NCBI GenBank assembly: GCA_001485605.1
Contig: FAON01000007.1
Span: forward strand, 1-64,000
DNA: 64,000 nucleotides
Reading direction: 5' to 3'
DNA from: Candidatus Kryptobacter tengchongensis
GTDB lineage: Bacteria > Bacteroidota > Ignavibacteria > Kryptoniales > Kryptoniaceae
Below the pieces are notes generated by a model. That model saw nothing but the letters and a program-made list of their open reading frames with translations, had not been told where the DNA came from and searched no databases. Of the stretch, positions 55,905 through 62,486 are shown piece after piece. Made by a program: the position numbers and the translations under genes. Each line of letters opens with the position of its first letter. The first letter of the stretch is position 1.

Positions 55905-56273
55905 TTAAACTGAAGAAAGGATTTTTTCTAACTCTTTTAATCCATCTTCAATATCTTCAACTTGCGATTTTGCGATCTCAGGATAAAATGTGATCTCAAT
56001 TGTGCGTAAAATTATTTTCCCACTTGAATTTCTATATTCCCCCCACCACACACCCGAGATTTTGCTTTCCTGCCAAACTGTTAATTCCGAACTTTCATAA
56101 ATAATTTTGATTTTCCCCCTTCCAAGCACCTCATCAAGAAATTTTGCTTCCTCATACGATAGGGGAAAATTACTTAAGTTTATCGTCTTAGCTTTGCCGT
56201 TGTTTTTAAGCTCAATTAGCGCATGTTTTATCTCATTTAGAAGAAAGACAGCATTTGTTAAGTTAGATTCCAT
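55905..56273 (-). CDS. HupH/HyaF C-terminal domain-like hydrogenase maturation protein
   Basis: 122 aa; the ATG at 56273 is preceded by GGAGGAGG, so it is preferred to the TTG at 56285. The segment TVWQESKISGVWWGEYRNSSGKIILRTIEI (first 20: TVWQESKISGVWWGEYRNSS) followed by ITFYPEIAKSQVED matches the C-terminal half of HupH/HyaF, which assists assembly of the small subunit's iron-sulfur clusters in oxygen-tolerant hydrogenases. Full HupH proteins are about twice as long, so this is either the second half alone or a short form. It overlaps the protease gene by 16 bases and is the last gene of the hydrogenase operon. Confidence 0.65.
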   Translation of the reverse strand: MESNLTNAVFLLNEIKHALIELKNNGKAKTINLSNFPLSYEEAKFLDEVLGRGKIKIIYESSELTVWQESKISGVWWGEYRNSSGKIILRTIEITFYPEIAKSQVEDIEDGLKELEKILSSV

Positions 56274-56734
56274 TCCCTCCTCCAAATTTCTATTTGCTTT
56301 TTTACTTCCTGAACAACATTATTGATAGATTTCCTAACCTCATCGCTCATCTCTCCACCCCATTTATTTTCCTTTAGCTGGACACCGATTAAAAAGCTCT
56401 CAATAGGTTTAAAACCAAGCAAATTCATCAAAGCAATAACTTCGTGAAAAGTTATTTGGTGTTCTGACATTTTAAGACCGATAAAGGCGGGAATTTCATC
56501 AAGTTTTAACTTTATGATTTCCCCTGGCTTGCCCCCGAAATTTACAACATCAACAACTATAAGATGTGTTTTATCTTCAAGATATGGCAAAAGGTAAATC
56601 CCAAGGGAGCCACCATCAATGATTTCAACATCAGGTGGCTCCCCAATTTCTTCTTTCAACCTCTTAACGACTTCAACACCGAAACCATCATCTCCAAGCA
56701 ATGGATTACCTATACCAAGGACGCAAATTTTCAT
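56258..56734 (-). CDS. hyaD: Hydrogenase maturation endopeptidase (HyaD/HupD family)
   Basis: 158 aa. The start CVLGIGNPLLGDDGFGVEVV contains the nickel-sensing motif GNPLLGDDGFG; the aspartate and DGG (IIDGGSLGIYLLPYL) and a later histidine (SEHQITFHE) complete the family pattern. The enzyme removes the C-terminal peptide of the large subunit after nickel insertion, here presumably the 15 residues after H563 of the neighbouring large subunit. The ATG at 56734 overlaps the cytochrome gene stop by 4 bases; an in-frame TTG six codons upstream is unlikely to be the start. Confidence 0.93.
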   Translation of the reverse strand: MKICVLGIGNPLLGDDGFGVEVVKRLKEEIGEPPDVEIIDGGSLGIYLLPYLEDKTHLIVVDVVNFGGKPGEIIKLKLDEIPAFIGLKMSEHQITFHEVIALMNLLGFKPIESFLIGVQLKENKWGGEMSDEVRKSINNVVQEVKKQIEIWRREWNLT

Positions 56735-57483
56735 TTTTCTTTTTTCTCCCAAGGTTTTTCAATCGGTTCCCAACCCAAGGGTCTTGTTTTCAAACCCGTT
56801 ATCATTGAAGACAACATCCCCTTCTCACGAAACACCTCAAGATAGATAACAAAAGTTATATGGTGAATCATAAATCCAATTATTCCCCACATTATCATTT
56901 TGTGTATCATCCTCACATTAGCCTCGCCACCAAACAAAGGTATAACCCATCCAAACAATGTATCAAAAAATCCACCTGGGTTAATCTTCCCAGCCATCGC
57001 AAAACCAGTCAACCCCTGAACAGAAGCGACAATGAAAAGAATTACATAAGTTAATGTCGCAAGAGTGTTATGTCCAAGCGTATGAAGCTCGTAATCGGTA
57101 TATCGCAAGGTGATATAATCTTTTAATTTCCACCATGCTTCCTTCCAGAAATCAGCTTTCCAGATATGAAATCTAAACCACTGACGATATGTATTCCCAG
57201 CAAAAAACCAATATGCACGAAACAATCCGTTTAAAGTGAAAATTATTGCGAACAAAAAATGTATATTTTTCATCGTCGCCATAACAGTTGCACCAAATGG
57301 TTCATCCGCAGTTGGACGATAAAATGGAGTACTAATGTAAAAACCTGTGAAAATTAAAACACCAACCGCGATGACATTTATCCAATGGCTAATCCTCACA
57401 ATAGAATCCCAAACATAATATCTTGTTACACATTCAGATTCAACCCGATATATTTGATTTGCTTGCATTGTTTTTAACTCCAT
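56731..57483 (-). CDS. hyaC: Ni/Fe-hydrogenase b-type cytochrome subunit
   Basis: Membrane anchor that takes electrons from the small subunit to the quinone pool. 250 aa with four main helices. Haem-ligand candidates are the histidines in VRISHWINVIAVGV, MKNIHFLFAIIFT and the C-terminal HKMIMWGIIGFMIHH segment, as in HyaC/HupC/HoxZ. The N-terminal tyrosine-rich segment RYYVWDSIVRISHW matches the family. It lies six bases after the large-subunit gene, as expected for a group 1 operon. Confidence 0.93.
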   Translation of the reverse strand: MELKTMQANQIYRVESECVTRYYVWDSIVRISHWINVIAVGVLIFTGFYISTPFYRPTADEPFGATVMATMKNIHFLFAIIFTLNGLFRAYWFFAGNTYRQWFRFHIWKADFWKEAWWKLKDYITLRYTDYELHTLGHNTLATLTYVILFIVASVQGLTGFAMAGKINPGGFFDTLFGWVIPLFGGEANVRMIHKMIMWGIIGFMIHHITFVIYLEVFREKGMLSSMITGLKTRPLGWEPIEKPWEKKEK

Positions 57484-57489
57484 TTGTTT

Positions 57490-59226
57490 TTACAAAATTT
57501 CAATTCTGGTTATCTCATTCCCGTTTATATCCAGAACATGAGTTGAGCAAGCAAGACAAGGGTCAAAAGAGTGAATTACCCTTAAAATCTCAAGTGGTTT
57601 ATGCGGATCAACAATTGGGACGCCAATCAAAGATTCCTCCATAGGACCACGCTGACCCATAGCATCTCTTGGCGAACCGTTCCAAGTCGTTGCAACCACA
57701 GCTTGATAATTTGCTATCTTGCCATCTTTAATTTTAACCCAATGTGCAAGGGCACCACGAGGGGCTGCGTAAGTTCCAACACCTTTTGCTTCACCTTTTG
57801 GCCATTTCTCGGGGTCCCATTTCTCCATGTTTGCGGTCTTGTAATCACCTGCTTTAATGTTGGTGATGAGCTCATCGTAAAGTTTTTTCAACATTCCCAC
57901 CGCTCTTCTTGTCTCAATTCCCCTTGCAATTGTTCTACCAAGCGTTGAATACATAGCTTCAAATGGGAGCCCGAGCTTTTTAAGTGCCTCATCAACATAA
58001 GATTTAACCTCTTCATCTTTATGAGCCAAGGCAATTATTGTTCTTGCAAGAGGTCCTCCTTCCATTGGTCTTCCACGCCAGCGAGGAGCTTTCATCCAGG
58101 AATATTTTTTATCCATGTCAAGAAATTCCCATGGTGGGGTTGGACCCGTATACTTCGGGTTCGTTTCTCCATCCCAAGGGTGAAAGGCAATTTTATCACC
58201 TTTTGAATATTCATACCAAGAATAGGCAACATATTCTTGAATTTGCTCTGGATCCGTCGGGTCAACTTCATGAACTTCGTTCAAATTCCCATCAAGAACA
58301 GCTCCACCTTTCCATCTGTTTGTCTTTAAAATTGTGTGGATATCTCCTGAATCCTCAGGGAATTCACCATAATCAAGAACCCCTTTTCTGCTCACACCTC
58401 CACCCCATTTCGCCCAATCTTTGTAAAATGACATTATAGCAAGAAGATCAGGCCAATAAAGTTGCTCAACAATTTGCTCTGCTTCTTCAATCTTTGACTT
58501 AACAAGGGCAAGCTTATCAACATTAATCGCATCAGGATGATTTAAATTAATAGCACATGGCATTCCTCCAACCAAAAGATTTGGATGAGGATTTTTACCG
58601 CCAAAAACAGCGTGAATCTTTACAATCTCTTTTTGCCAATTCAATGCTTCAATATAATGGGCAACCGCAAGAAGATTTGCCTCAGGTGGAAGTTTATACC
58701 CGGGATGACCCCAATATGCATTTGCAAAAATTCCAAGCTGACCGGATTCAACAAATTTCTTTAAGCGGTTTTGAATGTCAGTAAAATATCCAACCGATGA
58801 TTTGGGCCAATTTGAAATTTTTTGAGCAAGTTCAGCAGTGGCTTTAGGATTTGCCTTTAACGCTGAGACGACATCAACCCAATCAAGAGCATGAAGATGA
58901 TAAAAATGAACAACATGGTCGTGGACAAAAAGAGTTGCTATCATTATGTTCCTTATTAAATTTGCGTTTTTAGGTATTTTTATCTTCAAAGCATCTTCAA
59001 TTGCCCTCACAGAGGTAACAGCATGGACAAGCGTGCAAACGCCACAGATTCTTTCAGCAAGCGCCCATACTTCCCTTGGATCTCTATCCCTTAAAATTAT
59101 TTCAATCCCTCTGAAAAGAGCACTTGTGCAGGATGCATCTTTAATAACATTTCCATCAACAATTGCTTGAACTCTGAGATGACCCTCAATTCGGGTCATT
59201 GGGTCTACGACAACTCTTTGCGCCAT
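57490..59226 (-). CDS. hyaB: [NiFe] hydrogenase large subunit, membrane-bound uptake type
   Basis: Carries the Ni-Fe active site that oxidises hydrogen. 578 aa. The L1 motif RICGVC supplies C61 and C64 and the L2 motif DPCLACSTH (555-563) supplies C557 and C560. RIEGHLRVQ and AERICGVCTLVHAVTSVRAI are typical of group 1. A 15-residue tail (564-578) follows H563 and should be removed by the adjacent protease. A strong ribosome-binding site (AGGAGGAAT) precedes the ATG at 59226. The neighbours identify it as a HyaB/HupL-type, periplasm-facing uptake enzyme. Confidence 0.97.
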   Translation of the reverse strand: MAQRVVVDPMTRIEGHLRVQAIVDGNVIKDASCTSALFRGIEIILRDRDPREVWALAERICGVCTLVHAVTSVRAIEDALKIKIPKNANLIRNIMIATLFVHDHVVHFYHLHALDWVDVVSALKANPKATAELAQKISNWPKSSVGYFTDIQNRLKKFVESGQLGIFANAYWGHPGYKLPPEANLLAVAHYIEALNWQKEIVKIHAVFGGKNPHPNLLVGGMPCAINLNHPDAINVDKLALVKSKIEEAEQIVEQLYWPDLLAIMSFYKDWAKWGGGVSRKGVLDYGEFPEDSGDIHTILKTNRWKGGAVLDGNLNEVHEVDPTDPEQIQEYVAYSWYEYSKGDKIAFHPWDGETNPKYTGPTPPWEFLDMDKKYSWMKAPRWRGRPMEGGPLARTIIALAHKDEEVKSYVDEALKKLGLPFEAMYSTLGRTIARGIETRRAVGMLKKLYDELITNIKAGDYKTANMEKWDPEKWPKGEAKGVGTYAAPRGALAHWVKIKDGKIANYQAVVATTWNGSPRDAMGQRGPMEESLIGVPIVDPHKPLEILRVIHSFDPCLACSTHVLDINGNEITRIEIL

Positions 59227-59229
59227 TTT

Positions 59230-60324
59230 TTATTCCTCCTTTTGTTTCTTTTCTTCAACCTTTGCTTTCTGAGTTGCTTTCTTAACAATTGAAGCTACAA
59301 GATGAGCCCCGGTTGCAACTGCAACACCTATAGCAAATCCTTTACCAATTTCATCCGCAGTCGCAAATCCAGGCAAAGGAACATCAGCAACATGCTGATA
59401 AAGTGGTCTATTATCCCAATAATCTGGCTCTGAACAACCAAGACATGGATGACCAGATTGTATTGGAAAGCTTACCCCTTCATTCCACTTAACAATTGAA
59501 CAAGCATTATAAGTTACAGGTCCCCTGCATCCAACTTTATATAAACACCAACCTTTCCTTGCACCTTCATCATCAAATTTTTCAACAAACATCCCGGCAT
59601 CAAAGAAAGCTCTACGGTAGCATTTATCATGAATCCTTTGCCCATAAAAAACTTTGGGTCTCTTTAATGAATCAAGCTCTGGAAGTGAATCAAATGTGAT
59701 CAAATGAACTATCGTCCCAACTATAACCTCAGCTATTGGCGGACAACCTGGAATATTAACAACAGGTTTATCTGTAATTATCTTATAGATTGGCTTACAA
59801 CCGGTTGGGTTTGGGTGCGCGGTTGTCACACAACCAAATGAAGAACATGAACCAACTGAAATTATCGCCTTCGCACCCTGCGCTGCTTTTTTAAGGTATT
59901 CAATTGCCGTCATACCTCCAACAGTACAATAGACTCCACCATCTTTAGTTGGGACTGAACCTTCAACAGCAAGAATATAATTTCCAAAATTTCTTTTCAT
60001 CCCTTCCCAAACGATTTCCTCAGCCTGATGACCGGCAGCAACTTGAATTGTTTCCATATAATCAAGCGATATAATACCTAAAACTACATCTGAAATCAGC
60101 GGGTGCGAGGATCTGATCAATGATTCAGTGCAACATGTACACGCTGCAAAATTCAACCAGAATACAGGTGGTCGTGGTTTTGATTCCAGAGCGCGAACAA
60201 CTTTAGCAAACATACTGCTTTCAAGCCCAAGATAAGCAGTCGTCAAAAGACAGAACCTCAAAAAATCACGCCTTGAAATCCCATTTCTTCTTACTGCTTC
60301 ATAAAATGTTTCCTGCTTTTGCAT
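59230..60324 (-). CDS. hyaA: [NiFe] hydrogenase small subunit, oxygen-tolerant six-cysteine type, Tat exported
   Basis: Electron-transfer subunit with three Fe-S clusters; 364 aa. The start at 60324 follows GGGAGGT and gives a Tat signal peptide (SRRDFLRFCLLTTAYLGL). Proximal-cluster ligands are C62, C65, C160 and C176, and two extra cysteines C64 (ACTCCTES) and C165 (SCSSFGCV) match positions 19 and 120 of E. coli HyaA. These six cysteines define the [4Fe-3S] cluster of oxygen-tolerant group 1d hydrogenases. Medial and distal cluster motifs are present (CRGPVTYNAC and SGHPCLGCSEPDYWD), and there is a C-terminal membrane helix near residues 325-345. First structural gene after the acetyltransferase gene. 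Confidence 0.96.
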   Translation of the reverse strand: MQKQETFYEAVRRNGISRRDFLRFCLLTTAYLGLESSMFAKVVRALESKPRPPVFWLNFAACTCCTESLIRSSHPLISDVVLGIISLDYMETIQVAAGHQAEEIVWEGMKRNFGNYILAVEGSVPTKDGGVYCTVGGMTAIEYLKKAAQGAKAIISVGSCSSFGCVTTAHPNPTGCKPIYKIITDKPVVNIPGCPPIAEVIVGTIVHLITFDSLPELDSLKRPKVFYGQRIHDKCYRRAFFDAGMFVEKFDDEGARKGWCLYKVGCRGPVTYNACSIVKWNEGVSFPIQSGHPCLGCSEPDYWDNRPLYQHVADVPLPGFATADEIGKGFAIGVAVATGAHLVASIVKKATQKAKVEEKKQKEE

Positions 60325-60344
60325 TTTTAAACCTCCCACTTTGT

Positions 60345-62031: not shown

Positions 62032-62131
62032 AATCAAACGAATAATTTTTTACCCCGACTCTATAGATAAGAAAGTGCTTTTGGAAGAAGTGTGTTAAAA
62101 TTTACAAAAGTAAGGTGCTTAAAAATTCAAG

Positions 62132-62238
62132 TCGGGACGGCAGGATTCCTCCAAAGGAGTCCCTTTGGGAGAACCCGCGACCCCTACCACCCCAAGGTAG
62201 TGACCCTAAGGGTTCCCTTCGGGACGCTAACCAGAGCA
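62132..62238 (-). pseudogene. Broken tRNA-Pro copy with two palindromic insertions
   Basis: The parts of the tRNA-Pro(GGG) are recognisable in order. About 23 bp (CCTCCAAAGGAGTCCCTTT...) is inserted in the T-loop region and about 22 bp (ACCCTAAGGGTTCCCTTC...) between the anticodon arm and D-arm. The 5' acceptor side is lost after CGCTAACCAG. It cannot fold as a tRNA. The same second insertion is found in the copy at 62401. Confidence 0.85.
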
Positions 62239-62312
62239 CATTACACTCCAAAAATTTGAAAAAGAACAAAATTTTAATTCATCAAATTATCTTCACACTT
62301 AAAAATTTAAGT

Positions 62313-62387
62313 CGGGACGGCGGGATTTGAACCCGCGACCCCTACCACCCCAAGGTAGTGCGCTAACCAGGCTGCGCTACGTCCCGA
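62313..62387 (-). tRNA. tRNA-Pro (anticodon GGG)
   Basis: A 75-nt cloverleaf. Acceptor arms are CGGGACG / CGTCCCG with discriminator A. Anticodon arm CTACC / GGTAG encloses TTGGGGT, giving GGG. The D-arm is AGCGCAGCCTGGTTAGCGC, and the T-arm reads CGGGTTCAAATCCCG. This is the only intact copy; two broken copies flank it. Confidence 0.95.
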
Positions 62388-62400
62388 GAAATTGAAAGAA

Positions 62401-62486
62401 TCCTTTGGGAGAACCCGCAACCCCTACCACCCCAAGGTAGTGACCCTAAGGGTTCCCTTCGGGACGCTAACCAAGCTACGTCCCGA
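62401..62486 (-). pseudogene. Broken tRNA-Pro copy, truncated at the T-arm
   Basis: Shares about 69 bp with 62162-62230 (one mismatch), including the T-loop insertion remnant and the 22-bp insertion before the D-arm. It then continues CGCTAACCAAGCTACGTCCCG, so the 5' acceptor side survives but part of the D-arm is missing. The 3' acceptor side is absent. Confidence 0.85.

Follow-up and report, generated by a model that had tools for sequence, protein, structure and literature searches.

Two hairpin-bearing pseudo-copies of a bacterial tRNA-Pro gene as probable remnants of a tRNA-targeted, homing-like element

The window, the whole stretch of 64,000 nucleotides of Candidatus Kryptobacter tengchongensis analysed here, contains an intact tRNA-Pro(GGG) gene with one pseudo-copy on each side (Table 1). 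ARAGORN detects a single tRNA at this locus, which bears out the preliminary description of an intact central gene between two broken copies, and neither pseudo-copy is recognised as a tRNA cloverleaf by ARAGORN or by the Rfam covariance models. The downstream pseudo-tRNA consists of a degenerate 5' part, a D-arm remnant, a double hairpin at the junction with the anticodon arm, the anticodon arm itself, and a T-arm with a double hairpin in its loop; its 3' acceptor strand is retained. The upstream pseudo-tRNA comprises the 5' acceptor strand, a D-arm with a 5-nt deletion, the junction double hairpin, and the anticodon arm, and ends inside the T-loop insert. The two copies have a block of 72 nt in common (62162-62233 and 62402-62473; 99% identity, one mismatch), previously described, essentially correctly, as a 69-bp block with one mismatch, and the span then given to the locus, 62132-62486, lies near the measured limits without coinciding with them. 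No pseudo-copies of the two tRNA-Leu genes in the window were found. A conserved non-coding RNA other than tRNA was considered for the locus and rejected; apart from the intact tRNA, Rfam returns a single weak match that lies far under its threshold. Near the locus, on the minus strand (56258-60339), lies an apparent NiFe hydrogenase cluster, recognised from translations only, with a small and a large subunit, a cytochrome b-like protein, and a maturation protease.

Table 1. Features of the tRNA-Pro locus (window coordinates)
Feature	Position	Strand	Basis
Intact tRNA-Pro(GGG)	62311..62386	minus	ARAGORN; Rfam RF00005, 65.4 bits
Downstream pseudo-tRNA-Pro	62131..62250 (end ~62250)	minus	sequence comparison
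T-loop double hairpin, 22 bp, downstream copy	62149..62170	minus	sequence comparison
Junction double hairpin, D-arm/anticodon arm, downstream copy	62203..62224	minus	sequence comparison, shuffles
A/T-rich spacer between tRNA-Pro and downstream pseudo-tRNA	62251..62310	minus	GIY-YIG ORF position in congeners G004, G002
Upstream pseudo-tRNA-Pro	62402..62485	minus	sequence comparison
Truncated start of T-loop insert (TCCCAAAGG), upstream copy	62402..62410	minus	sequence comparison
Identical 22-bp junction double hairpin, upstream copy	62443..62464	minus	sequence comparison, shuffles

The junction insert is an identical 22 bp in both pseudo-copies (plus strand ACCCTAAGGGTTCCCTTCGGGA), as had been noted, and 0 matches to it are expected in shuffled sequence. 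Each insert is formed of two adjoining perfect 11-bp hairpins with stems of 4 bp and loops of 3 nt; on the tRNA strand, GGTTAGCG is followed by the hairpins TCCCGAAGGGA and ACCCTTAGGGT and then by CACTACC. A second double hairpin, which the preliminary description missed, lies exactly in the T-loop of both pseudo-copies; in the downstream copy the hairpins TCCCAAAGGGA and CTCCTTTGGAG stand between GGGTTC and GAATCC. In the source genome hairpin inserts occur at two places, both in tRNA copies, with no dispersed copies elsewhere. A second hairpin-bearing T-arm remnant lies on contig C4 of this genome (G000; 104375-104414; locus L009, 976-1015), downstream of tRNA-His and tRNA-Glu, and the 3' end of the tRNA-Glu is repeated exactly.

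Both flanks of the tRNA-Pro locus align to the flanks of the tRNA-Pro locus in five congeners, and the site is syntenic among them. Three congeners (G001, G003, G006) have a single intact tRNA-Pro and no pseudo-copy there, and two have pseudo-copies together with an ORF of the GIY-YIG nuclease family. In G004 the tRNA is followed by an 84-codon ORF and then by a complete pseudo-tRNA with both inserts. In G002, which is Candidatus Chrysopegis kryptomonas JGI-23 (locus L168), the order is pseudo-tRNA, tRNA, ORF, and a second pseudo-tRNA that has lost the stretch between its two inserts; at L011 (1457-1523) of this genome, the anticodon arm seems to have been lost when the two hairpin inserts recombined. 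The second hairpin of the junction insert, ACCCTTAGGGT in the window, is GTCCTTAGGAC in G002 and G004, a difference of two compensated pairs. The full element, as seen at the congener site, is thus a GIY-YIG ORF that directly adjoins the 3' side of an intact tRNA and has a remodelled copy of this tRNA on its other side. Because no GIY-YIG ORF of this UPF0213-type family was found in the source genome, the tRNA-Pro locus of the window is regarded as a remnant. The associated gene is this small nuclease and not the integrase expected at the outset. Insertion followed by tandem duplication, as first proposed, fits the two copies in the window, since both carry the same inserts and the orthologous pseudo-copies of the two congeners carry inserts at the same two positions. 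Short tandem repeats are easily misassembled, and an assembly artefact had been named as what would refute the earlier reading; it is hardly credible here, because inserts occupy the same positions at the syntenic site in the separately assembled G002 and G004, and the two copies in the window are unlike each other in sequence and end points.

The same arrangement recurs across the class: a tRNA, a UPF0213-type GIY-YIG ORF near its 3' end, and then a loop-altered copy of the same tRNA. Relatives of the ORF were sought at E up to 1e-6 in 21 related genomes, and the census takes in all 64, with tandem copies counted separately. The ORF starts within 50 nt behind the 3' end of a same-strand tRNA in 27/64 cases, within 100 nt in 35/64, and within 200 nt in 39/64, and downstream of 38/64 ORFs lies a partial copy of the same tRNA, although neither the 64 ORFs nor the related genomes are independent samples; by our estimate, the chance expectation for such placement is about 0.1 (about 45 tRNAs in 4 Mb). 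The tRNAs concerned include Pro, Gln, Arg, Met, Val, Ala, Ser, and Leu, and in further families of the class the ORF is placed in the same way, including behind Cys and Asp tRNAs. The ORF begins only 3-15 nt behind many of these tRNAs and its stop codon often lies within the D-arm of the pseudo-tRNA. Tandem units of ORF and pseudo-tRNA are also seen. In the loci read, the space between tRNA and pseudo-copy holds no site-specific recombinase and accommodates only the GIY-YIG ORF, of about 250-300 bp. Presence and absence at one site among relatives, as at tRNA-Pro, are seen again at tRNA-Gln(TTG), where eight genomes of family f2 carry the ORF and five that share the downstream neighbour lack it; in G010 a decayed start of the ORF remains, and pseudo-tRNA-like traces are left in G008, G012, and G014. 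Genome by genome, the sequence of the pseudo-copy tracks that of the resident tRNA. No tRNA lies near about a quarter to a third of the ORFs. Other RNA genes were considered as their hosts and rejected, as none of 13 such loci has an Rfam family at gathering score. On one 20-kb contig (L129; genome G008, contig C20) there are four GIY-YIG ORFs of the family with no nearby tRNA or Rfam RNA.

The congener ORF is a bare GIY-YIG domain (PF01541, E 4.5e-19), and ORFs of the family are about 80-110 aa long with no extra domain. Their nearest solved structures are the UPF0213 proteins EF2693 and BH0048 (PDB 1ywl, 1zg2), followed by SLX1, and they match the phage homing-endonuclease family phrog_314. 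Residues Y6, Y17, G19, R27, H31, and E63 are invariant across ten divergent members. A homing-type nuclease with intact catalytic residues is present in the congeners and not in the window, which lacks this ORF; judged by its family, the enzyme is presumably a DNase. The ORF is under purifying selection, with dN/dS in the tRNA-Gln clade of 0.08-0.19 where computable, a rough figure given that dS is near or past saturation. The ORF tree follows tRNA identity, with 14 target changes against 26 when identities are shuffled (0/200 shuffles as low). Members beside tRNA-Pro(GGG) in families f1 and f2 group in a single clade, and other families of the class have additional members placed after that tRNA. 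Part of this match between tree and tRNA identity may reflect vertical inheritance at one site. A phage origin was considered and rejected: the T-loop insert pattern has 0 matches in 2.9 million viral contigs, and the ORF profile finds one viral contig, which has no tRNA.

The structure of the pseudo-tRNAs was assessed in a sample defined by the ORF and picked without regard to hairpins. The recognisable pseudo-tRNAs in this sample have hairpins that replace the anticodon arm (for example, TCCCGCTTTGCGGGA, TGGCGCGACACGCGCCA, and GTCCCGACTGCATACCATGCAGTCGGGAC) or that lie in the T-loop or the D-loop; these vary from 15-nt single hairpins to long series, and the anticodon arms are replaced rather than interrupted. 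In the pseudo-tRNA-Met of L133 and L261, a hairpin stands in place of the D-loop, a third tRNA loop. The longest perfect stem reaches at least 6 bp in 23/28 pseudo-tRNAs, compared with 8/28 intact tRNAs and 10/28 downstream flanks. The mean longest stem of the pseudo-tRNAs is 7.1, compared with 4.7 in dinucleotide shuffles, although no more than 9 attain p 0.05 individually. Among 70 distinct T-loop inserts, the single base pair on which the search pattern sets no condition is C-G in 44, T-A in 25, and mismatched in 1; relatedness and mutational hairpin correction can lie behind part of this conserved pairing. Because hairpin sequences differ, the elements share hairpin structure and position, not sequence. 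The inserts, earlier said to look like short palindromic elements, are not one conserved transposing repeat: they vary in sequence, length, and number but keep their position and pairing.

The T-loop insert pattern, with up to one mismatch, occurs in 33/294 genomes of the class; read backwards, it has no match among the genomes listed. In 84,980 species genomes the exact pattern yields 67 stretches, of which 65 are in Bacteroidota and related phyla (Ignavibacteria, Melioribacteraceae, Bacteroidales, Balneolaceae, Cyclobacteriaceae, Chitinophagales, Marinimicrobia, Calditrichia, and similar groups), the genomes searched being mostly metagenome assemblies. The other 2, in Paenibacillaceae, have no adjoining tRNA and were left out as probable coincidences. 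A same-strand tRNA lies within 1.5 kb of 53 of the 81 T-loop insert sites, and 41/81 repeat the 3' end of the neighbouring tRNA with at most two mismatches; the occurrence of one insert type beside many different tRNAs in many genomes upholds, in a wider sense, the earlier suggestion of repeated targeting of a tRNA. The ORF is found within 600 bp at 24/81 sites and is lacking at 57/81. In genome G179, 11 pseudo-Thr units of about 112 bp and 8 pseudo-Cys units of 92 bp form arrays with no GIY-YIG ORF nearby (L109, 2861-4174; L110, 3346-4157), and each pseudo-Thr unit has a terminator-like hairpin. Double hairpins of the same type with no obvious tRNA copy are seen at L034, L041, L048, and L031 and may be decayed pseudo-tRNAs or a separate occurrence.

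Precise insertion points in many tRNAs (GGTTC/GAATCC and the D-arm/anticodon arm junction), the occurrence of both orders of the two hairpins, and the existence of a few matches outside recognisable tRNA copies would suit an independent mobile repeat that resembles the double-hairpin elements of fungal mitochondria and has tRNA loops as its insertion sites; only duplicated tRNAs would survive such insertion, and the GIY-YIG ORFs would merely supply the duplicates. We consider this distinctly unlikely, given the great variation of the hairpins in the ORF-defined sample, the replacement rather than interruption of anticodon arms, and the lack of dispersed copies away from tRNA copies in the source genome; nor do the elements amount to a single repeat family dispersed at unrelated sites, as their sequences differ. 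Replication errors can create and maintain perfect hairpins, and conserved pairing therefore need not mean selection. The tandem, broken copies might accordingly be ordinary tRNA duplicates in decay, with hairpins formed by template switching during replication (quasi-palindrome formation) where the sequence is free of selection. This explanation is highly improbable, for it does not account for the constant position of the GIY-YIG ORF, for hairpins that return at the same loops in many tRNAs and phyla, or for the orthologous inserts with compensatory change in three congeners.

The two broken copies most likely stem from a very small parasite of bacterial tRNA genes, and the locus in the window is probably what remains, without the nuclease, of a homing-like selfish element that targets tRNA genes. 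This reading draws on the observed architecture, its recurrence beside many tRNAs, its syntenic presence and absence, the tRNA-specific clades, purifying selection, and hairpin pairing. The nuclease would cut its cognate tRNA gene, and recombinational repair from an element-bearing copy would yield the order tRNA, ORF, pseudo-tRNA, homing being the presumed route of spread; the host would therefore retain one working tRNA. Repeated cutting with unequal recombination may multiply the units in tandem. By taking the place of the D, anticodon, and T loops, the hairpins most likely render the pseudo-copy uncleavable; they would also interrupt the homology between it and the working tRNA, which would make the element hard to delete and keep the tRNA from being overwritten. 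In the source genome, the ORF would have been lost and the two pseudo-copies left behind. Several points count against the homing reading. The ORF is a bare nuclease domain with no known DNA-binding module; the intact tRNA retains any site that lies inside it, so that the donor's escape from cutting is not accounted for; hairpin pseudo-copies stand without a nearby ORF at most T-loop insert sites, and some ORFs stand without a tRNA. The near-saturated dS of the tRNA-Gln clade points to elements that have long been resident under selection, not to rapid turnover.

Alternatively, nuclease and pseudo-tRNA may form a pair at the RNA level, in which the cognate tRNA is the substrate of the nuclease, with the transcribed, loop-less mimic as decoy or antidote, as in a toxin-antidote-like module. 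The pseudo-copy follows the resident tRNA in each genome and retains its stems without the loops that a tRNA-cutting enzyme would attack, hairpin pairing is conserved, and the placement of ORF starts and stop codons described above implies that the units are probably one transcript. To our knowledge, however, GIY-YIG enzymes cut DNA, and among solved structures the ORF comes closest to UPF0213 proteins and to SLX1, a structure-specific DNase. Folded as RNA, the pseudo-tRNAs give no clean cloverleaf with added hairpins, which speaks mildly against an RNA role and was not used as support; a terminator-like repeat separates tRNA from pseudo-copies in one array, and a decoy needs no position immediately behind its cognate gene. 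An RNA-level pair is accordingly unlikely. Whether hairpins serve as a DNA-level shield or an RNA antidote, it is possible, though we put it forward tentatively, that a bare GIY-YIG nuclease and a loop-less tRNA mimic with functional hairpins constitute, in Bacteroidota and allied phyla, a minimal genetic parasite or module of a new class. The tRNA-gene parasite is apparently undescribed so far; the arrangement was not described in the open-access literature searched, which is weak evidence of novelty. If the homing reading is true, it accounts for a group of tRNA pseudogenes and tRNA-like tandem arrays found across many genomes, the host is spared because one intact tRNA is kept, and many small UPF0213 genes may be tRNA parasites, not housekeeping genes. 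The replacement of loops by hairpins offers a directly testable case of a parasite protecting its own copy.

Integrative elements use tRNA 3' ends as attachment sites, and the loci described here resemble them in having an intact tRNA on one side and a repeated tRNA 3' end on the other. They differ from such elements in the absence of an integrase, in a unit length of about 300 bp, and in a repeat that includes the D-arm and a remodelled anticodon arm. Mitochondrial double-hairpin and repetitive hairpin-forming elements are known from Allomyces and sponges (PMC2800124) and are similarly short paired hairpins at many genomic places, whereas those reported here occupy almost wholly fixed loop positions of tRNA copies, vary in sequence, and are linked to a nuclease ORF. 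The UPF0213-type GIY-YIG proteins of known structure (PDB 1ywl, 1zg2) belong to the same sequence family, PF01541, and no link of that family to tRNA genes was found in the open-access papers searched. The closest precedent is the phage homing enzyme SegB of T4/T6, likewise a GIY-YIG nuclease whose gene adjoins tRNA genes, and which drives their tandem amplification by recombination (PMC13096335). In contrast to SegB, the elements here are chromosomal, encode about 80-110 aa without an extra domain, form clades by tRNA type, and are followed by a hairpin-remodelled copy of their tRNA, the one relative on a viral contig standing apart from any tRNA. If the homing reading is true, they represent a chromosomal counterpart of phage SegB, selfish nucleases specialised on single tRNA genes.
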